A DNA stretch of 64,000 nucleotides, taken from positions 868,001 to 932,000 of the forward strand of contig CP126204.1 of the NCBI GenBank assembly GCA_030272155.1, written 5' to 3'. Below, piece after piece: positions 3,715-63,835 of this stretch. Within the stretch, counting starts at the first letter, position 1, and every line of letters begins with the position of its first letter. The position numbers and the translations under genes were made by a program. The DNA is from Tetradesmus obliquus (lineage: Eukaryota > Chlorophyta > Chlorophyceae > Sphaeropleales > Scenedesmaceae). Below the pieces are notes generated by a model, which saw only the letters and a program-made list of their open reading frames with translations, made no database searches and was not told the origin of the DNA.

Positions 3715-5814
3715 ATGCTTGGCCTGCAACGCCTGTCGCTGCACAGAAGCAGCATCAGCAGTAGCTGTTGCTTGTCCCATCATGGCCATGGCTGTAGCAG
3801 CCAGCTTCGCACAGCCAGCAGGCTCGCACGGTGCAGCATATATTGCGGTATGCACCCAGCTTGGGCGCTGTGCCTGTCAGAGTAAATGTACCGCAATGTC
3901 TGCAGGAAGCATATGACGCAGTGCAGCGCAAGACACCACTGCAGCACAATGTCATCAGCAGGTGCATCCACACCATCTTGTAGTCAACAGCTTCGCATGT
4001 TGCACAGCAAGCTATGCTCTGTAGCATCATGCATGCTTGTGGGCCTGCTGACGTCCGTGGCGTAACCGTTGCTGTGTGCTCTGCTGCAGCTGCAGGCAAG
4101 CGTCCTGCAAGTGCCAGCAGTGCCCCTGCAGGCGGTGGTGACTCAGCAGGCAAGAAGAAGAAGCTCAGCACTAAGCAGCCGAGGCAGCAACACGACAGCA
4201 ACCTGTATGAAAGCGCGCCAACTGAGCAGGTGTGCATGGAGGATTGCTGCAGCCGCCAGGCAGCAGCCTGCTGTGCTGGCACATTGGGCATGCAGTAGTT
4301 CAGTACAACCTGCTGTATGCCTGCAATGCCAGTTGCTGCTACTACTTATTGTTCGTGTGCTGAGTGCCAACACATGCCTCAGGACTGCAGGCAATGGTCA
4401 CCAGCAGCATAACTAAGATCAGCAATGACGACCCTGAAGGCGTGCAGGAGCTAGAGGATGTGCTGCTGCAGTGGGGCGGCAGCTTTGGCTACATTCAGGT
4501 GTCTGCTGCTTTTGTCAAGGCAGCTAAGCTACGCCGCCTGCGGCCGGCTGATGCCAAGCCCCTGCTTGATAAACTGGCAGGCATGTGGGACACCCAGCTG
4601 CCAGATGCAGAGCCGCGGCAGCTGGCCAATGTGCTGTGGGCATGCGGCAAGCTGCGCTATACCAACCTACAGCTGTGGAGCAGCACCTTGACAGAGTTTC
4701 AGGAGCAGCTGCAGCAGGGAATCCAGGATGTCAACAGTGTGGACATTGCAAATGCACTGCATGGTCTGGCCAGTGCAGCTGCAGCAGCACGGCGTGAGGT
4801 GCCAGGCGTGCTGCCAAAGAGCTAACAGCAGCTGTATGCCAACTAAGTGAATGCATGCAGGTTTTGGTAATGCGTCCACGGCTGGAGGGTGTAGAGCCTC
4901 AACACATCTCCAATGTGCTGTGGGCATGTGCTAACCTGCGCATCAACCCGGGTGATGCCGTACTCAACAGCATCTTGCAGGCCATGTGACGGCCTGCGTT
5001 GCTGGGGGCGGCGGTGCCTCAGCACTTGGCCAACGTGATGTGGGCTGCCAGTGGGCTGCGGCAGCGCTGTAGTTGGCAGCCGCTCGTGGATCAGCGGGTA
5101 TGGCAGCGACTGTTGGGTGAGCAGCAGCTGAGTAGCATCTCTGGCAGTGGCATGCCGCAGCATGTATCTAACACTCTCCTAGCGTTGGCACGACTGTCCC
5201 TGCCAGCAGCGAACCCAACAAGTGCAAGCAGTGTCATCAGCCTAGAGTATGCACAGTGGTGTGCAGCACAGCTGCTCACAGGCAAGGTGGCACAGCAGCT
5301 CAACAAGTGGATTGCACAGGACATCAGCAACGCCATGTGGGCATGTGGCAAGCCTCACGTGCATGATGCTGCTTTTCTCGAGAGGGCAGCTGCAGCTGCA
5401 CGTAGCTGGCTGCTCAAGGCTGGTGCGCCAAATGTCCGGCAAGTGGCATATGCGTGCAGAGAGCTGCAGTTCAAGGATGAAAATCTCGTTGCAGGACTAG
5501 TGAATTGCGCTCAGCATGTGCAGCAGCGGGGCCAGCAGCAGACGTTGGCAATGACAGCAGAGGTCGGCTGTGCTGTCGCTGAGCTGGACATGCAGCAGCT
5601 GGCTGGCAATGTCAAAAGCCTGGTGGCCAGCAGTGGCGCAACAGCAGGCACACAGCTTCGCCCGGTAGATGCCCGGATGCTGTGGCAGGTGTACGCGTGG
5701 CTGCTGCAGCACCAGCTGCTGGATGGCCAAAGCCTGGCAGGGCTGCTGAGCCAGCAGCAGCTGGAGCAGGGCAGGGCAGCAGCTGAAGCTTATCATCAGG
5801 AACAGCAGCAATAA
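3715..5814 (+). pseudogene. OPR-like repeat gene, upstream copy, broken
   Basis: Three exons match the intact copy at 6757-9161: 3715-3847 (133 nt, Ser/Arg-rich organelle transit peptide starting MLGLQRLSLHRSS), 4090-4229 (Lys-rich linker ending APTEQ), and 4391-5814. Splice phases agree with the sister gene. The third exon carries OPR-style units: 'LANVLWACGKLR' near 4625 and 'ISNVLWACANLR' near 4905. Two lesions are visible relative to the sister: a one-base frame change near 4815-4822, after which the downstream frame resumes, and a TGA at 4987-4989 where the sister has Ala. Everything after that is open to 5814. Either a recently inactivated paralogue or two sequencing errors. Intact members of this family act in chloroplast or mitochondrial RNA metabolism; the specific role is unknown. 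Confidence 0.7.
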
Positions 5815-6756: not shown

Positions 6757-9161
6757 ATGCTTGGACTACACCGCCTGTCGCTGCAAAGAAGCAGCATCAG
6801 CAGTAGCTGTTGCCTGACCCCTCGTGGCCATGCCTGTAGCAGCCAGCTTCGCCCCACCAACAGGCTTGCACGGTGCCGTGTTTACTGCGGTACGCACGCA
6901 GCTAGCCTGGTTTCTCTGCATAAGGAACATTTCATGTACTGCAGCCAAGATTTGCTGCAGCGCCAAGATTTGCAGGATGCATGCATTGCAGTGTGTGTAC
7001 AGTAACGATCACCAGAGCAGCACAACGTCATCAGCAGGTGCATCTTCGCCAGCATGCTCTTCAATATGGTCCATGTTTGCACGGCTGTGAGCTCGTTGGT
7101 TCCGCTGTGTGCTGCTGCAGCTGCAGGCAAGCGCCCCGACAGTGGCAGCAGTGCAGCTGATGACAGTGCAGCAGGCAAAAAAAAGCCCAGCAGCAAGCAG
7201 CCAAAGCAGCGAGGAGGCAACAACTTTTACGACAATGCACCAACTGAGCAGGTGTGCGCATGCGTGGAACGCTACAGCTAGGTAGTAGCAGCTGTGAGTG
7301 CTTTGCTCTTCTGCAGCGCGCGGCTTACAACAGGCTCGTGTAAAGCAAAAAAAGTATTATGCCTGCCATGTGGAACTTGCCTTACCTCGCCACTTCCACC
7401 GGCGGTCTGGCTCCGTCAAGATCCTCTTACAAAGGCTTGCAGAGTTGGACCGTGGGCAGGTTACTGGCCGGACATAGTTACATGTGGGTCCTGGCACCAT
7501 GCAGTGCCAGCAAGTGCGGTGACTGTCTATCAGTCTTCTCAAACTCTGCAACATGTCATATGCCGCAGGGCTCGGCACTGCAGCCCATGATAACCAACAG
7601 CATCACTCAGATCAGTGATGACAGCCCCACAGGCCGGCAGGAGTTAGAGGAGATCGTGGGCGAGTGGGGCGGCAGTTTCAACTACATTCAGGTGTCGGCT
7701 GCTTTTTCAAAGGCAGCAAAGCTGCGCAGCTTGCGTGCGGCTGAATCCAGGCCCTTGTTGAATCAGCTTGCAGTCATGTGGGACAGCCTGCTGCCGAACG
7801 CAGAGCCACGGCAGCTGGCCAACGTGCTGTGGGCGTGCGGCAAGCTGCGCTACATGAACACGCAGCTTTGGACCAGCACCTTAGCCAGGTATGTGCAGCT
7901 GCTGCAAAACAGCAAGCAAGATATTCCCAGCCAGGAGCTGTCAAGCGCCCTGCATGGCATGGCGAATGTGGCCCTGGCCAACAGAGGAGTTGTGCCAGGC
8001 ATGGCTGCACCCGCGGTAAAAGCAGCAGTGCGGGAAATCGTGAAGCTTGTGTGCAAATGTGCAACCCACCCGTTCCTGGAGGGTGTGAGTCCGCAGGCTA
8101 TCTCCAACACGCTGTGGGCCTGCGCCAAGCTGCGCATCAACCCGGGTGGTGCAGCACTTGACACCCTGGTGCGGGGCATGGCACGACCTGACATGCGAGA
8201 GGCAGCGGAGCCACAGGCGCTTGCTAACACGCTATGGGCAGCTAGTGAGCTGCAGCGGCGGTGCGGCTGGCAGCCTGCAGTGAAGCAGCAGGTGTGGCTG
8301 CAGCTGCTTGGCGAGCAGCAGCGGTTAAAGATCGCGGATCTTGGCACACCCATTGATGTTTCTAATGCCGCACTTGCCGTCATGCGGCTGTCCACTGCAG
8401 GAGCAGCGGATGCAGCAGGCCTTGTCATCAGCCAAGAGTTTGCGCAGCAGTGTGTGCTGCAGCTGCTGCAGGGCAAGGTGGCACAGCAGCTGCAGCTGTG
8501 GGATGCACAAGCAATTGCCAACAGCATGTATGCATGCGCACAGCTTCGTATATGCGATGCCAGGTTTCTGAATGACGCCGCTGCTTTTGCACACAAGTGG
8601 CTGCCTAGAGCTGTTGCACTTGAAGTGGACCAAGTGGCATATGCATGCAAGGTGCTGCAGTATGGCAACCAGCAGCTGATGGCAGCTGTATTGCAGCACA
8701 GCAAGCGGCTGCTGCAACAGCATGTTAGGCCGCACGAGAGTTTGCTGCGATGCAGGCTAGCAGCGCAAGTGGGCTGTGCTGTTGCTGCTCTGGACATGCA
8801 GCAGCTGGCGGGCGATGTGCGGGAACTGGTGGCCAGCAGTGGTGTTGCTCGCCAGCGTGATGCTGCTGCCAGCCATGACTCGGATGCTGGCGTGCTGCAT
8901 GCCAGCAATGTCAATGCAGGGCTGCTGGGCATGCTGTGGGATACACACGCGTGGCTGCTGCAGCACCAGCTGCTGGATGGCCAGGGCCTGGCAGGGCTGC
9001 TGAGCCAGCAGCAGCTGGAGGCGGGCAGGGCGGCAGCAGCAGTGTTTCATGCTCAAACTCAGCAACTGCAGCCAGCTTTGACGTTGTGGACTTGTATGGT
9101 GGACCAACACATGGAGGCTGTAGTACCCAATGTGCCCAGGCGTTCTGGGCGCAGTTTTTGA
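6757..9161 (+). CDS. OPR-like (octotricopeptide-type) organelle protein, intact copy
   Basis: Exons 6757-6889, 7121-7251 and 7584-9161 join in phase (133 + 131 + 1578 nt), giving about 613 aa. Exon 1 is a Ser/Arg/Leu-rich transit peptide (MLGLHRLSLQRSSISSSCC), so the product is probably sent to chloroplast or mitochondrion. Exon 2 is a short Lys-rich linker. Exon 3 carries repeated units of the form 'Pro-x-x-Leu-Ala-Asn-x-Leu-Trp-Ala', for example 'LANVLWACGKLR' near 7820, 'ISNTLWACAKLR' near 8105 and 'LANTLWAASELQ' near 8225. This matches OPR-type helical repeats, RNA-binding proteins that stabilise, splice or activate organelle mRNAs. No RAP domain seen. The ~37 C-terminal residues after 9050 differ from the sister copy. 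Donors GTACGC and GTGTGC and CTGCAG acceptors are shared with the broken copy. Confidence 0.72.
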
Positions 9162-21200: not shown

Positions 21201-24200
21201 CGTCAGTACCACACAGCAGCAAGGCGTGCTGGCAACGCTCACAGCAGTGAATGCTCCAGTGAAGCAGGTCAGGCCGTTGGTGGACGCATTGTTTGGCAAG
21301 CAGCAGCAGCAGCAGCTGCTGCCGCAGACGCTCTTGAGTTTCATCCAGTCAATGCAGTTCTCAAAGGTGACAGTTGTGTATGCCAAATCAGCCTCTGGAG
21401 CAAATGCAGCAGCAGCAGCAGCAGCTGCAGCAGCAGCAGCTGCCCCGGGCGCATTTGCCCTCATCGCAACTCCAAGCTTCGACGGAGCTCCAGACCTGAA
21501 GCAGATCGCCAATGCCCTGGGTTTAACCATCACAGACTTTGCCCTGACCTCAGCAGGATCCGGCCTAAACTTTGGCACAGTGAAGCCATTCAAGCTGCAG
21601 CTGCCGCCTCCATTCACAAGCACAGGCTCCACACTGCTGGCCTTAAATCAAGACAGTGCATTGCTTGAAGCTGTGCTGACTGGCAGTGTGTCAGCTGGCA
21701 TAAAGCTTCCAGGCATTGCTGCTGCAGTGCCTCTGCAGCTCACAGCTGATGTGTCAATGCGCAAGCCACTGACCCCAGCAGCGGCAGCAGCAGCAGCAGC
21801 ATCTGGCAGCAGCGAGAATGTCTTGCTGCAGCTCTCGGCGCTTGTCATGCGCCCGATCGCATTCGACAAGTTTGGTTTCGTGCAGTTTGGAGATGTGAGG
21901 CTCTCCGGGGCAGCCATTGGCGGCCTTTCAAGTGAAAGCTTGGGGTCTCTGAGTGTGTCTGCGCCGATCACGGTGTTTGGAGTGGAGGCTCCCTCATCCT
22001 TTGTGTTTGACAGGTGGGTGCTGCTGCCAAGGGTTGAATGTGTCATGGGGTGCAACTTGTGGGGTGTTGCGCATCATGTCCGCGCCGGTGACGGTGTTTG
22101 GGCAAGAGGCTCCGTCATCCTTCGTGTTAGACAGGTGAGTGCTGCTGCCAAGGGTTTAACGTGTCATGGGGTGAATTTTGTGGGGTTTTGCGCATCATGT
22201 CTGAGCCGGTGACGGTGTTTGGGCAGGAGGCGCCGGCATCCTTTGTGTTTGACAGGTGGGTGGTGTGCAGCAATGTTGCAGCATTGAGCGCCGGCGGCAG
22301 CACCCTGTCTGTATTAGCAAACTACACGCCCCTCAAGCGCCAGCGCTGCCTATTATGACACATGTCTTACTTGCATCCCTACATGTTGGACCAACTCCTT
22401 AGCTAATGCAACTTTGTGCTGGTTGCTGTGTTGTGCAGGCGCATGGAGCCCCTGGTTTTCCAGGCTGACTTGACTCAGGTTGATCTCACACTGCCGAAGC
22501 TCTGGCCTTACATAGTATGCCTTCATCAACGGCAAAATGTTTTGCTTGTTTGCTTTGTCTCTGCTGCGCAGGCGTATGCAGTCGCTGGTCTTCCTAGCAG
22601 ATCTGCCCCAGGTGGACCTCACACTGCTGCTGCACTCAGTCGGAGTGAAGCTCTGGCTCGGCAAGATGGACGTGCAGCTGACCCGCGTGCGGCAATCATA
22701 CGCAGATGTCGCATTCAACGGCGAATATATTACGCGTCCGGCTGGCATGTGGTTTGAAACAGATTTGAAGTTCCTCGGGATGACGTCAAAAACGAAGTTT
22801 GAATTGACAGAAGAGGGCGCCAGCTTCGTGTCGGACTTCAGCGCGGCAGAAGCGACCAAGGTGAGGCATGTTGCGCAGCAGCGGCGGTGCCAGCAGCAGT
22901 AGAACAGCGGCGGCGGCAGCGGCAGCGGCGGCAGCAGCAGCGGCGGCAGCAGCAGCAGCGGCGGCAGCAGCAGCGGCGGCAGCAGCAGCGACGGCAGCGG
23001 CGGCAGCAGCAGTGGCGGCTGCTGCCGCTGCGGGCATTGATGTCAGATGTCAGCAAGCAGCATCACACTGTGACCAGTGACCGCTTGCTAGGCATGGTTC
23101 AGCGAGTCATCCCAACTTCAAATGGAGCGACACTGGTGCCAATGTAGCTTGGGCACAGGCTGCCGCAGCCAAGGAGCCAGACGGCGTGCGTGTATGGTGA
23201 TGTGTAATAGTTGCACCGTGCATGTCAGGACCACAAGATGGCGCATAAGAAGCATGAGAAGCTAACAAAAAAACCAGTGATAACTTTATCCTCATAACCA
23301 TTGGCTGTGTTGCTGCGTGCAGGCATTCAAAGCTCAGACCACATCCCGGGTCCAAAGCATTTTGCAAGGCGTTGCTGCTGCCCTCCAATCAGCCGGCAGC
23401 AGCAGCAGTGTCGCTCCTGCTGAGCTGCTTGCTGCTCAAAGCGAGCTGGCCGACGCTACAGCTGCGTTTGAAGCAGCAAGAAAGAAGGTGGGTGATTTGC
23501 GTTGTCATCAAGACTGCAGCTGTTAAGTACTGTGGACACAGCAGCAGGTATCTGTGTTGCTTGTACACCTCCAGATTTTTAACCTCTGAATGTGCTCAGT
23601 TTGAAAAAGGATTGTACCTGTGATGACAAAACCAATCTGAGTGACAGCCATGGATATCGGCTGTAATGGCTGCGTTCTATCCTGCCCCGGATGTCCCCTG
23701 CAGGCGATCAACGCGGTGAATGCGGCCCGCAGCAGTGCCTCTGCAGCCGCCTTCAATGTTGACAGCCTCAGGCAGCAGCGCAGCCAAGCACTGGACACCG
23801 CCTTTGCACAGTACCAAACAGCGGACGCAGCATACGCTGCTGCTGTTTCCAAGGCGTTTGCAGATGCCAGCAAGGCAAAGGCGGCGCTTGAGAGGACACA
23901 GGAGGAGTGAGTGACAGAGCAGCAATGTGCTGTGCGGCTTCAGCTGTTGTGCATTGGCGCATTGAGTGACGTTGAGGAGCAAGTTTGAGCGAGTTTGCAT
24001 CCAGACGACAAGTTATTGTTTTCTTTAACAAAAAAACAGGTGCACTGCTGACATTGCCCTCTGGCGCTGGTGTGAGCTGATTTCCTAGTGTGCTTAGGAA
24101 GTTGCTGCTGTAATGTGTAATGCAGGTATTCAGCAGCTGTGGCAGCTGCCCAAATCAAGGTCGAAGCAGCACAGCTGGCAGCCAACCAGCTGCGCAGCAT

Positions 24201-26310: not shown

Positions 26311-28420
26311 ATGCAGTCTACTCTGCAGCTGGGGCGCAGCAGCGCTGCCGGCTGCAGCGTGTCCACATCTAGGCAGCAGCGCCCAGGCCTAACCAGCAGC
26401 AGCTGCAGGCACAGGCAGCCGCTGCTGGTGCACAGCAAGTTCTCAAACCCTTTCGATGGCATGTTTGGGGGCGGCAATAAAGGAGGCGGCGGCGATGCAG
26501 ATGCAGCCAGGAGAGCCATCGAGGTAAGTTTGGAGTCTAGAGCAATGCTGCTGTTGAATGCAGCACAATGCAGCAATACCACTACTCTGCAGGTCCTGCC
26601 ATGTATCTAGCTTGGTAGTAGTAATCTTGGGTCAACAGGGAGTGGAGTCACAGCAGATTGAGCAGCATCGATTGTCATGCACTTGCTCAGTGACCAACAG
26701 GAACGATGTTGTGGGCTCGCACTGGTGGTATGCATCAGCATGGCACTGCTGCTGCACCAACAGATGTCTCCGTCTGGGGCGAGCTAATGGCAGTTGCAGA
26801 TGCACTCTGGGCCAGCAGCGTTAGCAAGTCACCACCAACAGGAGCAGCAGCAGCAGCAGCACCCGGGCAACGGGCAGTTGCAGGTGCTTCATACGCCTGC
26901 ATGCAATGTCTGCACAGCAAAACACATATCGCTATTGTTCACTGACTGCTGCCTTCTCTTGCAACTGACAACCCCTTTGCAGAGGTCGTTCGGGGGTGCA
27001 GGCAAGGGCAAGCAGCAGCCAGGCAAGCAGCAGCCCGCAAAGCAGCAGCCAGCCAAGCCAGCAGGAGGCCCCCTAGGCGGCGGCATGCCTGGCAGCAGCA
27101 GCAGCAGCGGCATGGCAAAGCCAGCAGGCAGTGGTTTTAGTGGCCTTGGCAGCTTGTTCGGCAAGGGAGCAAAAGATGGTGCAGCGCCAGAGGCTGGTGG
27201 CGGCGGCCGGGCAGGGTTTGGCAACCTTGGAGGTGGAGGAGGTGGTGGCGGTGGCGGCTGGAACTGGGGTGGTGACAAGGGCGGCGACGAGGGGCAGGGA
27301 GGTGAGGAGGTTGGAGAAGGAATAAAGATTGGACGGTTCATTGTGGTGTTTGTAAGGGCTGAGGCAGCTGTGCTTATGTGGGATTGCCACGGCGGTGTAG
27401 CAGCTGCTGTGGCAAGTATAGCAGTTTGAAAACCCTGGAGCATCTGGCAGTTTTAGCAACCTTGGGGGTGGAGGAGGTGATGGTTGCGGCGGCTGGAACT
27501 GCGGTGGTGACAAGGGCGGCGATGAGGGGCAGGGAGGTGAGGAAGTTTTGCACTTGCGGTGGCAGAGGCAGCTGTGCTTGCGTTGGATGTAGCAGCTGTC
27601 GTGGCACATCTAGCAGTTTGGGAACCTTGGAGGTGGTGGTGATGGCCGGAATTGGGGTGGTGACAAGGGCAGAGATGAGGGGCAGGGAGGTGAGGAGTTG
27701 TTCGGCTGGTGTAGCAGCTGCTGCAGTGAATGTGGCAGTTGCAGGGCAGCTGTGCTGTTGTGGAACTGCGTGTTAGGGGGGTCGGCTGGCTGTGGCCTCT
27801 GCTGGTGGCTGGTGGCTGCGCCAAAATGACTGTCTTTTTCCAAAAGGAGCAGCGCAGAGGACAGCGATGCTGTACTCAGCAGCAGAGTGCCGTCCTGTTG
27901 TCAGTTGTAGTCATTTGCTGCAGGAATATAAAATCTATATATGTTTTGTTGTGTTCCAACTGCTTGCAGGCGAGAAGCCCATCCAGGCAGAGCTGCTGGA
28001 GCTGTTTCGTGGCATCTGTCATTTCAAATGTCCACAGCATTGTTACAAATGCTGTTACAACTGCCTGCAGGCGAGAAGCCCATCCAGGCGGAGCTGCTGG
28101 AGCTGTTCCGCGGCATGTGGGTGGTCTTCTGGAACGCGGCGCTGTTCCTGGCCTTTGCGGACGTGCTGCACAGGTCACTCGACTGGTGCTGCCAGGTGCG
28201 GCTGCTTGACCGAGTTATGAGTGACTGGTTCAGTGGTGACTTGTCTGCTGCTAGCAACGTGCTGTACCTGGCATTCGCGGACGTGCTGCACCGCTCGCTG
28301 GACTGCTGCTGCCAGGTGAGCGGTGCGGCACTTTCGGTGGGGTGATGCGACTGTATAAATGAATGAATGAGCTACGTGGTGTGTTGACACGCACAACCCC
28401 ATAAGGTAAGGGAGGGTGTG

Positions 28421-28512
<92 letters not shown>

Positions 28513-30091
28513 ACGATGAGGATACCCCATGCGCCTTCACACCTCCTACCATTATGCTACTGTCTAGCATATGGTGTCGTGCGGCGTGCAGCTGCCGCAG
28601 TGCTGCACAGCATCCTCTGCACACAGACACATTCCCGCTGCAGCGTCGGGCCCAAACCCATGCTCAGCTGTCTCTGCCTGTTCTGCACGCAGCTGGAGCT
28701 GCTGCTGCTGGTGGGCGCGCCAGCGCAAGCTTTTGGGCGCCTGGCGGGCCGCTTCTACGCTGCTGTGGAGTGCTGCTCTTGCATTTGAAAGTATGCTGAT
28801 GTCGCCACATGTGTGTCCGTAACTTGCAGGTGGAGCTGCTGCTGCTGGTGGGCGCGCCAGCACAAGCCTTCGAGCGCCTGGCGGGCCGCTTCTACGCTGC
28901 TGTGGAGTGGCTGGAGGCCAACTGCCTGGGCTGGAAGATCCCTGGGGAGGAAGACATGATGCCGGTGTACAAGCAGATCGCACTGTACTACCCCGAGGAG
29001 CACGCCTACACCTTTGACAGCTACAGGTAGGGTTTGAATGTGTTATAACATGTTGTTTTTGTGTTTTAGCGTGTGGTGCTGGATGATCCCTGGCGAGGAA
29101 GACATGATGCCGGTGTACAAGCAGATCGCGCTGTACTACCCCGAAGAGCACGCCTACACCTTTGACAGCTACAGGTAGGGTTATGAATGTTTTATAAATG
29201 TTATTTTTGCATTCTAGCGTGTGGTGCTGGAAGATCCCAGGGGAGGCAGACATGATGCCGGTGTACAAGCAGATCGCACTGTACTACCCCGAGGAGCACG
29301 CCTACACCTTTGACAGCTACAGGTAGGGTTTGAATGTGCTATAACATGTTATTTCTGTGTTTTAGGGTATGGTGCTGGACGATCCCAGGGGTGGAAGATA
29401 TTATGCTGGTGTACAAGCAGATCACGCTGTACTACCCTGAAGAGCACTCCTACACCTTTGACAGCTACAGGTAGGGTTTGAATGTGTTTCAACATGTTAT
29501 CGTTGTGTTCTAGCGTGTGGTGCTGGATGATCCCAGAGGAGGAAGACATGATGCTGGTGTACAAGCAAACATAACATTCTGCGCGCAGGTACAACATGAG
29601 CGAGGACGAGAAGTAGGCGCTCAAGCGCTACTACGCGCTGCACCAGCAGCACCTTCAGTACATATAGCAAAGCTGACACTGAATCGCTCCTGAAAATCTA
29701 TTTATGATGCAGGTACAACATGAGCGAGGACAAGAAGCAGGCGCTCAAGCGCTACTGCGCGCTGCACCAGCAGCACCTTAAGTACGTTGTAGCGAAGCTG
29801 ATACACTGAATCTGTTTATGATGCAGGTACAACATGAGCGAGGACGAGAAGCAGGCGCTCAAGCGCTACTACGCGCTGCGCTGGTGGGAGCGCGACGGTG
29901 GCTTTGCTGGTGATGTGGCACCTGCAGAGGTGCAGGCCATCAAGGACAAGTATGCTCCCAACGATGCGGATCTGAGGGCATTCAGGGCGGCAAAGGCGGC
30001 AGGCAGGCTTGAAGAGTACTGGGCAGCACAGGCAGGCAAGCTGCGGGAGCTCACCGGGGATGGTGCTGCGCCTGTGGCTTTTGCACGCTGA
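26311..30091 (+). CDS. Putative plastid-targeted membrane protein, family not recognised
   Basis: Exons: 26311-26523 (Ser/Arg/Gln-rich transit peptide, donor GAG|GTAAGT), an unresolved middle exon between 26524 and 26982, 26983-27301, 28071-28195, 28830-29026, 29827-30091; the last four join in phase. The protein has a Gly/Asn-rich early part (NPFDGMFGGGNKGGGG), a Gln/Lys then Gly-rich exon 3 ending GGDKGGDEGQGG, a hydrophobic stretch (MWVVFWNAALFLAFADVLH, likely membrane segment), then conserved-looking soluble sequence (YKQIALYYPEEHAYTFDSY, YNMSEDEKQALKRYYALRWW) and a helical C-terminus ending APVAFAR. I do not recognise the family; a chloroplast location is inferred from the N-terminus. 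Nearly every exon border from exon 3 on has tandem copies nearby, so real splice choices need transcripts. Confidence 0.6.
27217..27700 (+). repeat. Triplicated exon end (GGDKGGDEGQGG)
   Basis: The end of the Gly-rich exon recurs three times with donors GGGCAGGGAG|GTGAGG at 27302, 27537 and 27690. All three include AACCTTGGAGG/GGGGG, GGTGGTGACAAGGGC and the donor. Spacings 235 and 153 bp. Confidence 0.85.
27960..28130 (+). repeat. Duplicated exon start (GEKPIQAELLELFRG)
   Basis: Acceptor plus exon start occurs at 27970 and again at 28071, 101 bp apart. Both read GCGAGAAGCCCATCCAGGC. Confidence 0.85.
28130..28322 (+). repeat. Duplicated exon end (FADVLHRSLD)
   Basis: The exon end with donor at 28196 recurs with donor at 28316 (GACTGCTGCTGCCAG|GTGAGC), 120 bp apart. 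The downstream copy has the better donor but lacks the first part of the exon. Confidence 0.8.
28415..28512. repeat. (TG)n(CGTG)n microsatellite
   Basis: A TG run passes into about 20 copies of the tetramer TGCG, 98 bp in all, inside the intron between the hydrophobic exon and the next one. Confidence 0.95.
28681..28910 (+). repeat. Duplicated exon start (ELLLLVGAPAQAF)
   Basis: Acceptor plus exon start at 28693 and 28830, 137 bp apart, nearly identical over about 80 nt. The first copy runs into non-coding sequence after GCTGTGGAGTG. Confidence 0.85.
28922..29570 (+). repeat. 148-bp array of 105-nt exon copies and 43-nt introns
   Basis: After the exon ending at 29026 come three full copies, 29070-29174, 29218-29322 and 29366-29470, each 105 nt. 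They are separated by intron-like spacers 29027-29069, 29175-29217, 29323-29365 and 29471-29513, each exactly 43 nt, starting GTAGGG and ending TTTTAG or TTCTAG. A fourth copy from 29514 is cut short near 29568. Each full copy is open in the host gene's phase (phase 2 in, phase 2 out) and encodes 35 residues such as VWCWMIPGEEDMMPVYKQ. So inclusion of one, two or three copies would keep the frame. Whether 43-nt introns are spliced here is unknown; the alternative is one 800-nt intron from 29027 to 29826. Confidence 0.9.
29580..29880 (+). repeat. Triplicated last-exon start (YNMSEDEKQALKRYYAL)
   Basis: Acceptor plus GTACAACATGAGCGAGGAC occurs at 29587, 29713 and 29827. The first copy has an in-frame TAG after GAGAAG; the second runs into intron sequence after CAGCACCTTAAGTA. 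Only the third continues into the open last exon. Confidence 0.9.
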
Positions 30092-30314
30092 GCGGTTGCA
30101 GAACCAGCAGCAGCAGCAGCTGTTAGCAGGTGACGTGGCACCTGCAGAGGTGCAGGCCATCAAGGACAAGTATGCTCCTAACGATGCAGATCTGAGGGCA
30201 TCCAGGGCAGCAAAGGCAGCAGACAGGCTTGAGGAGTACTGGGCAGCGCAGGCAGGCAAGCTGAGGGAGCTTACGGGTGATGGCGCTGCACCTGTTGCAG
30301 GTGCGCTAGGGTGA
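29911..30314 (+). repeat. 219-bp duplication of the last exon's 3' part
   Basis: Bases 29911-30085 (from GATGTGGCACCTGCAGAGG) recur at 30130-30300 with few changes. The second copy ends at a different stop (30312-30314) and is preceded by GTTAGCAG, a possible acceptor, so it could be an alternative terminal exon giving the ending APVAGALG instead of APVAFAR. Confidence 0.8.
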
Positions 30315-58115: not shown

Positions 58116-61100
58116 ATGGGCAAGAAGCCAGCACAAAGGCCAAATGAAGCAAAGTATGGCATGGCACTGTATGGGGCAGCATGGCCTGAGGGCGAATACT
58201 TCTTCGTATGCGGAGGTGGAGGCCATGGGCTGGTGAACAGGTCAGAAGGCATTTGCACAGCACTGACTAACGTCACCGTATGCAGCTGACATTGAAGTAG
58301 TACAGGCTGCAGCTGCGTAGCTGCAGAAGTAGAGCACACCAGCTGCTGTTGTCCTGCATCTGCATCTCCATCTGCACCTGCATCTTGATGAACCTGTTGA
58401 TTACCAACAGCATCTCAGCATACTAATTCAGTGCTCCAGCAGTGGCAGGGCCACCATGAGCAGCAACAGGCGCATATTGCGGCAGGCGCACCTCCAGCAG
58501 TGCCTGTTCATGTGTGCCAGCAGACCAGCAAGCTTGGACAGGCCACAAGGCGCTCTGCCACACACGCCTGCCCACATTCCCTGCGCTGTGCAAGCAACAA
58601 CTGTATCGCATTATGGGCTGGGCTTGCAGGATTGTGTGGGGCCGCTACAGGGACGGCAGGTGCTCCGACCAGCTAGGGGACTACAAGCTGGGAAAGGAGA
58701 CACCCATGAGGTGTGGTGGTGCTAGTTACAGTAATGTATGATGCACGTGTGTCAACAGAAGGATGTGCTTATGTGGAGTGCCAGCAACAGCAGTGCCCTG
58801 TGGCCGCAAGCTGCAAGCACGCTTTTTGTGCAGCTTGCTGAGCAGCATGTTGGATCTCTCCTGTGCGCGCACGTGCTTGGCTGCAGGATGCTCATATGCC
58901 CATGGGGCTCTCGCTTGCTGGTGATCAACGCCAACGGCCTGTTACTAGCAACTGCAAGCGTGTTTGGCATGTGAAGCACTGAGCAGCTTGGTAAATCTCA
59001 TGTGCGTGTGTTGAATCTCCTGTGCACTGGCTGCAGGATGCTCATTTGCCCCTGGGGCTCCAGCTTGCTGGTGGGCAATGCTAACGGCGGCATCCGGCGG
59101 CTGCAGATCGGCAGCGACGACTCGGCTGAGCACAAGCCAAAGCTGGTGGAGGTGTCAGGTCAGCAGCAGCAACAGCAGCAGCAGCATGAGGGTGCGCTGG
59201 CGCCAGGTCAGCGTGCAGCAGAATATGTGTGACATGTGCAACAGAAGTGTGGGGGTGCCAGGTCAGCATGCGGTTGACAATCTAAACATCTTTTGCACCA
59301 GCAGTGCACTACGCCAGGTCAGCAGAAATTGTAGCATGCGACAGCAGTATGGGACGCTAGGCCAGCATGCAGCAGATGTAGCATGCTGTGTAACAGCAGC
59401 AGTGGACGCCAGGTCAGCATGTTGCAGATCTAGCACGCCGTGCAGCAGCAGTGTGGTGTGCCAGGTCAGCGTGCAGCAGAATGTAAAACGTGCTGTGCAA
59501 TGGCAGTGTGAGGTGCCAGGTCAGCATGTTGCAAAAATACAGAACACACAACAGCAGCGCGCTGGACCAGGTCGGGTTGCAGCAGATGCCACTTGTCATG
59601 CAACAGCAGCGTGGGACGCCAGGTCAGCATGCAGCAGTTGTAACCTCCAGTAGCAACATTGCCGTGCGCCACATGCTACAGACATACGGTTTGTCACTGC
59701 TCTGGCTGCGCTGCTTGCATCTTCTGCACTGTGCAGCTGCTTTTCAGGAGTTGCTGGCTGGCATTCCTGGGCAGACTGACACCTGCACTGCTCTGTGCTT
59801 GCTCTCATACTTGCTTGCTTGTCGCTTCGCTGGCTGCGCTGTGCAGCTGCTTTCCAGGAGTCGCTGGCTGGCATTCCTGGGCAGACTGTCACCTGCACTG
59901 CTCCGGGCTTGCTCTCATACTTGCTCGTTTCCCACTGCTCTGGCTGCGCTGTGCAGCTGCTTTCCAGGAGTCACTGGCTGGCATTCCTGGCGAGGTAGCT
60001 GCGATGCGCTTCAACAGCAGGGGCAACATGCTGGCGGTGTCGTTCAGGGAGAACAGCACAGTGAAGGTCATCGCCTACCCCAGCATGAAGGAGCTGGTGG
60101 CATGGAAGTGAGTGTGGCACTGCAAGTGATCATTCGAAACTGGCAATGCGGGTGATTGTTGGCAGCTGCGTGCAGGGCATTGCCTACCCCAGCATGAAGG
60201 AGCTGGTGGCATGGAAGTGAGTGTGGCAATGCAAGTGATCATTCGAAACTGGCAATGCGGGTGATTGTTGGCAGCTGCGTGCAGGGCATTGCCTACCCCA
60301 GCATGAAGGAGCTGGTGGCATGGAAGTGAGTGTGGCAATGCAAGTGATCATTCGAAACTGGCAATGCGGGTGATTGTTGGCAGCTGCGTGCAGGGCATTG
60401 CCTACCCCAGCATGAAGGAGCTGGTGGCATGGAAGTGAGTGTGGCACTGCAAGTGATTATTCGAAACTGGCAATGCGGGTGATTGTTGGCAGCTGCGTGC
60501 AGGGCAGTGCCTACCCCAGCATGGGGGAGCTGGTGGCATGGAAGGTGAGTGTGGCAATGCGGGTTAATGGTTTGAAATTGGTAGCTGTGAGCAGTTGTGC
60601 TGCCTGTTGCAGTATGATGCACATGGAGCTGGGGGTATTGAAGTGAGTGTGGCAATTGGAGTGCCTGCTGTTTGTGTTTTGGTAACCGCATCCTAGTTGG
60701 CAACTGCATCCTTCACCTGCCTGTTTGCATTTCTGCTGCACATTTTGCAGTTTTGTCGCTGTAGCGCTGTTGCACGTCAGCAAGGGTGACTAACAGGCAG
60801 TGACCCAGTGCCCCTTTTTCAGACATGTCATTAGCTGGAAATAGCCAATCCTCTGGACTGGAAAGGCACAGGATGGGTGGAATTGCCACCTGACATGAGC
60901 ACTCATGCACCACCCGCCCATTCACATCTTGAACCTGGCAGGCTTGATGATCCAGAGGTCAAGGATGTGGACTTCTGCCCCCACACAGCAGCAGCAGCAA
61001 TCCTGCAGCAACAGCAGCAGCAGCAGCCGTCAGGCGCTGAGCTGCTGGCGACTGTTGGTGGAAACGGCGTATGTCGCGTCTGGGAGGTGCGCGCCAACCA

Positions 61101-63032
61101 GCAGCAGCTTGTGGCAACGCTGGAGCCACCCAAAGGTATGTGCGCATTACGCTCTTGTGTTTGGCAAAGTGCATGCTGTGTGCTATGAATGCACAGCTGT
61201 GTGAGGGAGGTGGCTTTGGCTCACACAGCGTGCAAGCATGCTTGCAGAACCTGTAGCATGCATCCTGTTGCCCTGCATGGTTGCTGTTGTCGCTGTCTAC
61301 AAGCCGTGGACATTCACGGCTGTGGCAAGTGCCAGTTTCTTTATGCTGACTTGCTATGATTTCTAAGTTTCTCTCCATCCATCCGGCTGCTGTGCCCCCC
61401 GCCTTCTAGCAAAGGCCCAGTGCGCCTTTGCGCGCTGCTGCCACCTGTCCAACGCTCCATTTGTCACCTGCTGTACACTGTTTCCCCTGCAGACAAGGCC
61501 AAGTGCGTCTTTGCGCGCTGCTGCTGGGCGCGCAGCAGGCAGCCGCTGCTGTTCGCTCTTGTGAACTACCGCATGGGCAAAGACCTGGGCTCATACCTGG
61601 TGGCATGGCTCCTACCTGGCGTGCTGTTGTGCCAAAAAATTACTTCTGACCACATTGCCGTCTCCCGTCCACATGCTGTCCCGCACAGACAAAGCCAAGT
61701 GCGTCTTCGCGCGCTGCTGTTGGGCGCGCAGCGGGCAGCCGCTGCTGTTCGCTCTTGTGAACTACCGCATGGGCAAAGACCTGGGCTCATACCTGGTGGC
61801 CTATGGGCCCCCAGAGGGCCCAGGCAAGCCGTGGCCGCTGCTGAAGAAGGTCAAGGCCAACAACAGCCCTGCTTCGGCAATGGACATCAGCAAGCATGGG
61901 GAGTGGATTGCGGCTGGCTACTCGGATGGCATGCTGCGGGTGAGGGGCGGGGTGGGGCGGCAGGGGATTCCCATGTACTAGATGTGAAAGGATAGATGGA
62001 TAAGCATAGATGGCAAGGGTGACGGTAGAAAGGTTTTGTGTGCATAGCATCATCAGTGGATTGCGGCGGGTTATTTGGACGGCATGCTGCGGGGTAACGT
62101 TGATGCCATAGTTAGAGCGCTCACAGCTGATCTGGATCTCAAACTGTTGTGTTCTGCTGCTGCCCAGGTGTACCACAGCGACACACTGATGATGAAGTCA
62201 GAGGCGATGGCCAGCATCGCGTTTGTGAGCAGCGTCAGCTTCAACGCCGACAACAGCGCCGTCATCGCGGTGGGAGGTGACGCCAACTGCTACGTGATGG
62301 AGACAGTCGCGCGGCGCGAAGCTGGCATGTGAGTCATTCACCGTCTGAGTGATCAGATTGTTACAACTAGTCAATCAGTTCACGCTGGGCACGCATTGGT
62401 GTTGCTTGCGTGTTTGTGCATCTGCGTGCCATGTGGCACGGCTCGCAGCTGGCATGTGAGTCGCTGTCTGGCTGCTTTCACAGGATGAACATCTGCTTGT
62501 TTGATCTGTGTGCGTATGCACTTGCAACGCATGCGGCATGGCGCCAGCTCAGCTCGGCATGTCAGTGACGCACAGAGATGCCACACAACCACTGCATGTC
62601 CTTCCAGCAGCAACGCTACGAGCAGCCACCTATTCATGTCAACCACCTCCACCACCTCACCGCCTGTTAGGCACCACAAAGTCATACGCCTGCCCAGCCC
62701 TACATCATCCATCTGCTGCGCCCGCCTGAATCTCAACTCTGCGTATTTGCTGCTGCGTGCCCTGCAGAGGCGCTGCTGTGCGCAGCCTGCTGCTGTTCCT
62801 GCTGCTGTGCCTGGCAGCCGCCGCGCTGCTGCACTTCTACCAGCACCCAGAGGCGCTACCATACACAGCACTGCAGTACCTGCAGCAGTACCACAAGCGG
62901 CCAGATATTGTACAGCGCTGCAGCAGCAGCGAGGGAGCGCTGCCGCTACAGCCGCAAGCTTGTGAATGGCTGCAGCGTGCAGCTGAGGTGCTGCCAGATG
63001 AGCTGTATAGGCAGCAGCATGATGAGCTGTAG
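58116..63032 (+). CDS. SEC12: SEC12-like (PREB-type) Sar1 guanine nucleotide exchange factor
   Basis: Eight exons join in phase: 58116-58240, 58630-58710, 59037-59158, 59957-60107, 60942-61135, 61689-61939, 62168-62328, 62768-63032; 449 aa, usual for the family. SEC12 is an ER membrane protein that loads GTP onto Sar1 to start COPII coat assembly. Evidence: N-terminal ALYGAAWPEGEYFFVCGGGG with HGLVNR (the conserved Gly-rich loop that contacts Sar1), MLICPWGSSLLVGNANGG, WD40-type blades VKDVDFCP...LATVGGNGVCRVWEV, AMDISKHGEWIAAGYSDG and VSFNADNSAVIAVGGD, then one C-terminal membrane segment VRSLLLFLLLCLAAAALLHF and a short lumenal tail ending QQHDEL. The C-terminal HDEL would match an ER-retrieval signal and sits on the lumenal side. 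Most borders are flanked by tandem copies of themselves. Confidence 0.87.
58881..59100 (+). repeat. Duplicated SEC12 exon 3 start
   Basis: GGCTGCAG|GATGCTCAT(A/T)TGCCC occurs at 58887 and 59037, exactly 150 bp apart. The first copy reads MLICPWGSRLLVINANG and then diverges into intron. Confidence 0.85.
59150..59645 (+). repeat. ~52-bp minisatellite grown from the exon 3 donor
   Basis: After the exon 3 end (TGTCAG|GTCAGC at 59158) the word CCAG|GTCAGC or a close variant recurs about every 50-56 bp, some nine times (near 59203, 59258, 59312, 59365, 59410, 59460, 59516, 59567, 59619). Each unit also has GCA(A/G)CAGCAG and GTG(G/T)GACGCC-like parts. Each unit therefore carries a copy of the splice donor. 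Confidence 0.8.
59725..60000 (+). repeat. Triplicated SEC12 exon 4 start, 110-bp period
   Basis: Acceptor GTGCAG|CTGCTTT(T/C)CAGGAGT at 59737, 59847 and 59957, exactly 110 bp apart. The third is the one that continues in frame. Confidence 0.9.
60070..60660 (+). repeat. SEC12 exon 4 end, five to six copies, 109-bp period
   Basis: Donors TGGAA|GTGAGTGTGGC at 60108, 60217, 60326, 60435 (109 bp each) and a fifth near 60545; a weaker sixth copy near 60607-60660. Each added unit has its own acceptor (GTGCAG|GGCATTGCC), so each is a 41-nt exon copy plus a 68-nt intron copy. 41 nt is not a multiple of 3, so inclusion would shift the frame. Confidence 0.9.
61405..61800 (+). repeat. SEC12 exon 6 start, three copies
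   Basis: AAGGCC(A/C)AGTGCG(T/C)CTTTGCGCGCTGCTG-like starts near 61412, at 61493 and 61689. The second copy stays open for about 115 nt (KCVFARCCWARSRQP) before diverging; the third is complete. Confidence 0.85.
61900..62095 (+). repeat. Duplicated SEC12 exon 6 end
   Basis: GTGGATTGCGGC(T/G)GG(C/T)TA...GGCATGCTGCGG, with donor at 61940, recurs at 62055-62093 without a GT donor. Confidence 0.75.
62300..62570 (+). repeat. SEC12 exon 7 end, decayed copies
   Basis: CGCGAAGCTGGCAT|GTGAGTC (donor 62329) is echoed by CGGCTCGCAGCTGGCATGTGAGTCG near 62440-62465 and more weakly by GCTCGGCATGTCAGTGACG near 62553-62571. The first echo keeps a full donor. Confidence 0.65.
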
Positions 63033-63835
63033 CAGCTGCTGCTGGCGCAGCTGCTGCTGCAGCGAGGGACCGCTGCCGCAGGCGTGCGAGTGGCTGCAGC
63101 AGGCAGCTGAGGTGCTGCCAGATGAGTTGTATAGGCAGCAGCACGATGAGCTGTAGCGCATGTAGCTAGCTCAGCTGCAGCTGCAGCAGCCGTGAGGGAG
63201 CGCTGCCGCTGCAGCCGCAAGCCTGCGAGTGGCTGCAGCGTGCAGCTGAGGTGCTGCCAGATGAGCTGCAACGGCAGCAGCATGATGAGCTGTAGCAAAT
63301 GCAACTGGCGCTGCAGCCGCAGAAGCGAGGGGCTGCAGCCGCAGGCCTGTGAATGGCTGCAGCGTGCAGCTGAGGTGCTGCCGGATGAGCTGTATAGGCA
63401 GCAGCATGATGAGCTGTAGCACATGCAACTGGCGCAGTTGCTGCAGCAGCGAGAGGCTGCAGCCGCAGTCTTGCGAGTGGCTGCAGCGTGCGGCTGAGGT
63501 GCTGCCAGATGAATTGTATAGGCAGCAGCATGATGAGCTGTAGCACATGTAGCTGGCACAGCTGCAGCAGCAGCGAGGGAGCGCTGCCGCTGCAGCCGCA
63601 GGCTTGTGAATGGCTGCAGCGTGCAGCTGAGGTGCTTCCAGATGAGCTGTATCAGCAGCAGCATGATGAGCTGCAGCAAATGCAACTGGCACAGCTGCTG
63701 CAGCAGCGAGTGGCTGCAGCCGCAGGCCTGCAAACGGCTGCAGCGCGCTGCTGAGGTGCTGCCAGATGAGCTGTATAGGCAGCAGCATGACGAGCTGTAG
63801 CAGCTGCTGCTGGCGCAGCTGCTGATGTTCCTGTA
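62940..63835 (+). repeat. Seven tandem copies of the SEC12 stop-codon end
   Basis: The segment encoding CEWLQRAAEVLPDELYRQQHDEL and its TAG recurs. The word (A/G/T)GCTGAGGTGCT starts at 62981, 63105, 63244, 63368, 63492, 63625 and 63749: spacings 124, 139, 124, 124, 133, 124. Every spacing is 1 modulo 3, so successive copies lie in successive frames. Each copy still spells the same peptide in its own frame and most end in TAG. Only the first is joined to the SEC12 frame; the others would lie in the 3' UTR. Confidence 0.9.

Follow-up and report, generated by a model that had tools for sequence, protein, structure and literature searches.

The window analysed here is a 64,000-nucleotide stretch of Tetradesmus obliquus DNA (assembly GCA_030272155.1, contig CP126204.1, positions 868,001 to 932,000 of the forward strand), and the features of the gene described below all lie on its + strand. 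The gene encodes a homologue of Tic35 (Ctap5), a subunit of the chloroplast translocon; a review lists Tic35 as one of the TIC components in the Chlamydomonas TOC-TIC supercomplex (PMC10546890). Its modelled coding exons run from exon I, with a donor at 27302 that was set by eye, through exon II (28071–28195, CAG acceptor ending at 28070, donor at 28196) and exon III (28830–29026) to exon IV (29827–30091, acceptor ending at 29826, stop codon TGA at 30089–30091). The joined exons match PDB 7vcf_O (Tic35) with E 5.5e-55 over residues 1–177 and 7xzi_5 (Ctap5) with E 8.1e-55, the alignments spanning 177–178 residues, and only one locus was found, all 11 matches falling inside 2.3 kb. Pfam gave for the joined protein only a sub-threshold match to DUF434 (E 0.016). 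The gaps in the Tic35 alignment amount to one residue adjoining the join of exons III and IV and four residues earlier, inside exon III. The direct join 29026–29827 thus yields a conserved protein, since it aligns to Chlamydomonas Tic35 with no sign of 35 extra residues. A long GTGT/GTGC microsatellite occupies 28416–28512 in the intron between exons II and III.

The intron that follows exon III holds a tandem array of three full 105-nt units (unit 1, 29070–29174; unit 2, 29218–29322; unit 3, 29366–29470), a truncated fourth copy and four 43-nt spacers (spacers 0 to 3, at 29027–29069, 29175–29217, 29323–29365, and 29471–29513), with a period of 148. Tandem Repeats Finder reports 28930–29567 with period 148, 4.3 copies, 89% matches and a score of 1022 against a threshold of 50, by which a chance repeat was rejected as the source of the array. 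Each spacer starts with a GTAGGG donor (29027, 29175, 29323, and 29471), the only occurrences of this motif within 28800–29700, and closes with a TAG acceptor (ending at 29069, 29217, 29365, and 29513). The spacers are T-rich, and spacers 0 and 2 contain the motif TATAAC, which we take to be branch-like; the GC content of the spacers is 26–37% vs. 37 to 65% in the first 43 nt of 11 modelled introns of an alaS gene treated below. All three units are open in the frame of the gene and have phase 2 at each end, and their length of 105 nt preserves that frame. This layout had been described in an earlier, sequence-only reading, and a coordinate check confirmed its positions. That reading also derived the units from the end of the preceding exon, which is borne out with the detail that the copied part of exon III begins at 28930, i.e., that each unit repeats the last 97 of the 197 nt of the exon and not the exon as a whole, while the first 8 nt of each unit are without match to it. 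The truncated fourth copy (29514–29567, the match ending at 29567) and the acceptor ending at 29513 are additional to that description; this copy has no donor, and reading on from it leads into a TAA. Relative to exon III, units 1, 2, and 3 carry 1, 1, and 6 amino-acid changes. The equal lengths and the absence of stops had been taken as signs of youth or of selection. Neither needs selection, because the lengths follow from the copying of one 148-bp unit and because stop-free units are unsurprising with so few amino-acid changes. Likewise the closeness of the period to a nucleosome length is not specific, 148 being an ordinary value among 87 repeat families with minimum spacings of 61 to 559 (median 137).

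The array is not the only such structure in the gene, as each of the six junctions between exon I and exon IV has partial exon copies. The end of exon I has a donor-side copy at 27452–27547 and a second, more diverged one at 27605–27700; exon II has an acceptor-side copy of its start at 27952–28018 and a donor-side copy of its end at 28261–28318; and the start of exon III is copied on the acceptor side at 28689–28772. Two acceptor-side copies of the start of exon IV, at 29585–29661 (with an in-frame TAG) and at 29709–29785, show little silent change and differ from the exon by replacing differences only. Beyond the stop codon the last part of exon IV is present a second time (30130–30314, matching from 30123). 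This copy is preceded by a CAG acceptor ending at 30129 and is open to a TGA of its own; 15 of its 18 differences are silent and three replacing, which makes it the clearest case of the silent excess treated below. It could be an alternative last exon, spliced from a GT at 29910. The putative upstream exon at 26440–26523 yielded no copy in the same comparison.

Partial exon copies at splice junctions were seen in all four gene regions examined, i.e., the Tic35 homologue, two alaS genes (C6 and C15) and a valS gene (C10). The search of housekeeping families began with alaS, whose C6 gene was retrieved once one overlapping exon match had appeared; alaS C15 and valS C10 were retrieved without a prior hint of copies. 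In alaS C6, copies exist for 9 of 12 modelled exons. Among its 29 copies, all 16 within 8 nt of an exon 3′ end lie downstream of the exon and all nine within 8 nt of a 5′ end lie upstream, the remaining four being internal, but this order is expected from any tandem duplication across a junction. Of the 13 repeat families in this gene, 12 touch a modelled exon, vs. a mean of 7.4 when the exons are rotated, and 14 of 2000 rotations reach 12; the test covers this one gene. The alaS C6 model may lack exons, as profile matches skip positions 226–263 and 411–448, and some of its 11 modelled introns (169–1033 nt) are perhaps too long; the two shortest (169 and 181 nt) lie between adjoining profile matches. 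In alaS C15, six of eight repeat pairs are near a profile-matched exon and touch five of nine such exons, and in valS C10 two of 11 pairs do so, touching two of six. Together 8 of 19 pairs are thus placed by profile; the rest were classed by eye as coding pieces beside splice sites, except for an intronic-looking valS pair (8534/8608). Over 20 spaced 10-kb regions, 12 with local repeat pairs and eight without, and with the window included, 111 repeat pairs lie within 1 kb of each other vs. six further apart, and local repeats cover 19,767 of 264,000 bases (7.5%). When loci with at least 92% identity were printed (spacing up to 700, one per 400-base bin, 28900–29600 excluded), all 12 looked exon-like with a plausible splice site by eye; at one locus, one copy contains a stop.

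How far these copies have been constrained was judged from their divergence. Averaged within each of 20 exon sides of alaS C6 and the Tic35 homologue, which vary widely, dS is 0.30, dN 0.049, and dN/dS 0.16 (bootstrap 0.11–0.24), the ratio between copy and copy being 0.39. Simulated neutral copies of a constrained working exon gave means of 0.41–0.59 under six mutation models, and in none of the 60 runs per model did the ratio fall to the observed 0.16 or lower; with both copies constrained the means were 0.06–0.09, and all 60 runs per model gave 0.16 or less. As the observed value sits between the two, it fits a mixture of neutral and constrained copies. For alaS C15 and valS C10 the pooled ratio is 0.29 (0.17–0.51) and not clearly below neutral; 15 pairs entered this value, of which 14 come from the 19 listed and the other was formed within a listed family, and their reading frames follow the peptides seen in these regions. 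Individual copies, among them one of alaS C15, appear to decay freely. Constraint, or silent divergence that predates the copying, is therefore supported in alaS C6 and the Tic35 homologue and not established in the other two genes. Between units 1 and 2 of the array, differences occupy 2 of 76 replacing, 4 of 17 silent, and 6 of 42 spacer sites, and replacing sites stand apart from the rest with p 0.005 in Fisher's test (0.023 vs. spacer alone). The comparison of exon III with unit 1 also gives 0.005 (0.020 vs. spacer alone), these values being uncorrected for six tests and for shared ancestry; the other four pairs are not significant (p 0.07–0.20). Unit 3 has six to seven replacing changes relative to the other copies. 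By these counts units 1 and 2 look mildly constrained.

Several causes of the silent-site excess were considered. Snapshot copying and gene conversion were rejected by reasoning, as both predict a neutral ratio near 0.5 or more, and conversion strong enough to protect amino acids would also erase silent differences. In-frame use as cassettes is a poor general cause of the low dN/dS, because the frame is kept by only two of the eight donor-side families. It is plausible that the silent divergence reflects copying between diverged alleles. A diploid T. obliquus with extensive heterozygosity has been described by Biondi et al. (2024), as cited in PMC12633428, where the reference list gives a title naming a phased, gapless diploid genome of UTEX 3031 and haplotype divergence. 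Two assemblies, GCA_030272155.1 (104.70 Mb) and GCA_030272055.1 (100.30 Mb), each with 17 scaffolds, are tabulated (PMC12571836), and we infer that they are the two haplotypes of this strain. Speaking somewhat against an allelic origin, alternate scaffolds of a related strain were called at over 95% identity (PMC7955037), which is closer than a dS of 0.30 suggests; moreover, the sequence analysed here represents a single haplotype.

The array is probably a by-product of donor-side duplication of a splice junction, skipped in the main mRNA, and one case of events that are frequent in this genome. A 148-bp piece consisting of the last 97 bp of exon III, the donor and the start of the intron would have been duplicated in tandem, with later expansion to slightly more than four copies. 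The first copy would have stayed joined to the rest of exon III, so that splicing from the donor at 29027 to the acceptor ending at 29826 gives the normal protein, while the extra copies are carried within an intron of 800 nt. Skipping of all units is likely in the main mRNA, because the direct join aligns to Tic35 without room for extra modules. Like duplications would account for the copies at the five remaining junctions of exons I to IV and at many in the three other gene regions, each lengthening the intron and leaving behind exon-like pieces that already carry splice signals. Some of the silent divergence may predate the copying, e.g., through recombination or template switching between diverged alleles of the diploid. 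The mild constraint on units 1 and 2 is not required by skipping and counts against this interpretation, and it is conceivable that copies of the array could occasionally serve as spare exons.

The sequence-only reading raised the possibility that the three units are alternative cassette exons, which in this gene would give Tic35 proteins with one to four 35-residue modules. The observations behind it stand insofar as the units are open, in frame and of phase 2 at both ends, the T-rich spacers offer a donor, an acceptor and in two cases the putative branch motif, and amino-acid changes in units 1 and 2 are few when set against spacer and silent sites. That the layout itself is special evidence is unsupported, as partial copies occur at junctions in all four regions and frame-keeping lengths are no commoner than chance: among the eight donor-side families of alaS C6 and Tic35, those that end in GT and offer CAG or TAG as a candidate acceptor, the frame is kept by the array and by one alaS family. 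An intron of 43 nt with a TAG acceptor would be unusual in this alga, given that the shortest of the 11 modelled introns has 169 nt and that acceptors are CAG in 12 of 12 modelled alaS and 3 of 3 Tic35 cases (15 of 15 together), exon starts being placed by eye, possibly in favour of CAG. Moreover, unit 3 and the truncated copy look to be decaying, and the conserved protein needs none of the units; use of the units as cassettes is considered unlikely. That tandem duplication instead strikes at random along introns, and that it appears anchored to junctions since exons stay recognisable longer and copies inside exons are selected against, would account for the order of the copies, for the free decay of some and for the wide variation in divergence between exon sides. 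Anchoring may indeed be inflated by the longer recognisability of exons. Random duplication is nevertheless difficult to reconcile with the 12 high-identity loci, which also sit at junctions (by eye), with the rotation test in the one gene that it covers, and with the low dN/dS of two genes, and is regarded as quite improbable.

An artefact of assembling two diverged haplotypes into one sequence is suggested by the allelic look of the silent-site divergence between copies. At some junctions, however, the mutually diverged copies number more than two. Five introns, three of them in Tic35 and two in alaS C6, hold both kinds of copy, and in each of them those derived from the preceding exon come before those derived from the next, which is not the order of concatenated haplotypes and by which linearised haplotypes were ruled out. 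In addition, a telomere-to-telomere, gapless and phased assembly is named for UTEX 3031, presumably the present one, and an artefact is accordingly a very remote explanation. A mobile introner was likewise unsupported. Introner elements are defined by many near-identical copies at unrelated loci, and the array differs in that its DNA matched only its own locus and the acceptor-side copy at 28689 among the best candidates, which alone were scored. No relatives were found in a search of viral_contigs and genome_contigs, and no RNA family reached gathering scores within the window.

In intron gain as described for the potato RdRp gene (PMC4974935) a tandem duplication likewise spans a splice junction and carries the splice signals with it, as the copied 148-bp piece does here; the alga differs in that many junctions per gene are involved, often with several copies each, and in that spliced new introns are putative. 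With tandem exon duplication and mutually exclusive exons (PMC9013439) it shares similar exon copies in tandem within one gene, lying in neighbouring introns and possibly expressed, but the algal copies are mostly partial exon ends and often break the frame, and a regulated choice between them is putative. Chlamydomonas Tic35 and Ctap5 align with the joined exons as one matched stretch and, unlike the array, lack a repeated 35-residue module. Among the literature listed, titles and the beginnings of abstracts name nothing like junction copies in Sphaeropleales, although this does not prove that no such report exists. An earlier T. obliquus assembly was tabulated with introns averaging 462 bp and 15.7% coding sequence, next to 230–302 bp and 25.7–44.0% in four other algae (PMC5966456). 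It is tempting to speculate, though the proposal is tentative and rather doubtful as yet, that junction-anchored duplication ranks among the main forces behind the long introns of T. obliquus. Recombination between the diverged alleles of a diploid would probably supply it, and it would maintain a stock of exon fragments equipped with splice signals, some of these fragments, such as units 1 and 2, being used enough to be conserved. The broader pattern of junction copies is in any case more interesting than the array itself. If genome-wide, it would allow the growth of introns, and the gain or loss of splicing by partly copied exons, to be followed in this alga, and the two haplotypes of the strain (as deduced above) would supply an internal comparison. 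Automatic gene models of the genome may meanwhile contain spurious repeated exons.

Similar repeats were noted elsewhere. In the window, another gene has donor-side copies at 21956–22265 (121 bp, 2.5 copies) and, by eye, apparent acceptor-side copies of the next exon start at 22437–22700. At 59724–60560 one exon is flanked on the acceptor side by repeats of 110 bp (2.4 copies) and on the donor side by repeats of 109 bp (4.6 copies, 97% matches), the latter with 41-nt AG..GT stretches by eye that would break the frame. A 115-nt exon-like copy at 61490–61800 is 96.5% identical to, and upstream of, an apparent full exon, and a nested tandem array with periods of 124, 257, and 387 occupies 62945–63824. 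Four alaS copies at 8189–8671 have 77 nt between AG and GT, three of them also with an AAG giving 72. In region L033 an alaS exon end is repeated in tandem at 4529–5222 (127 bp, neighbours about 97% identical), and its copies have in common silent differences from the working exon.
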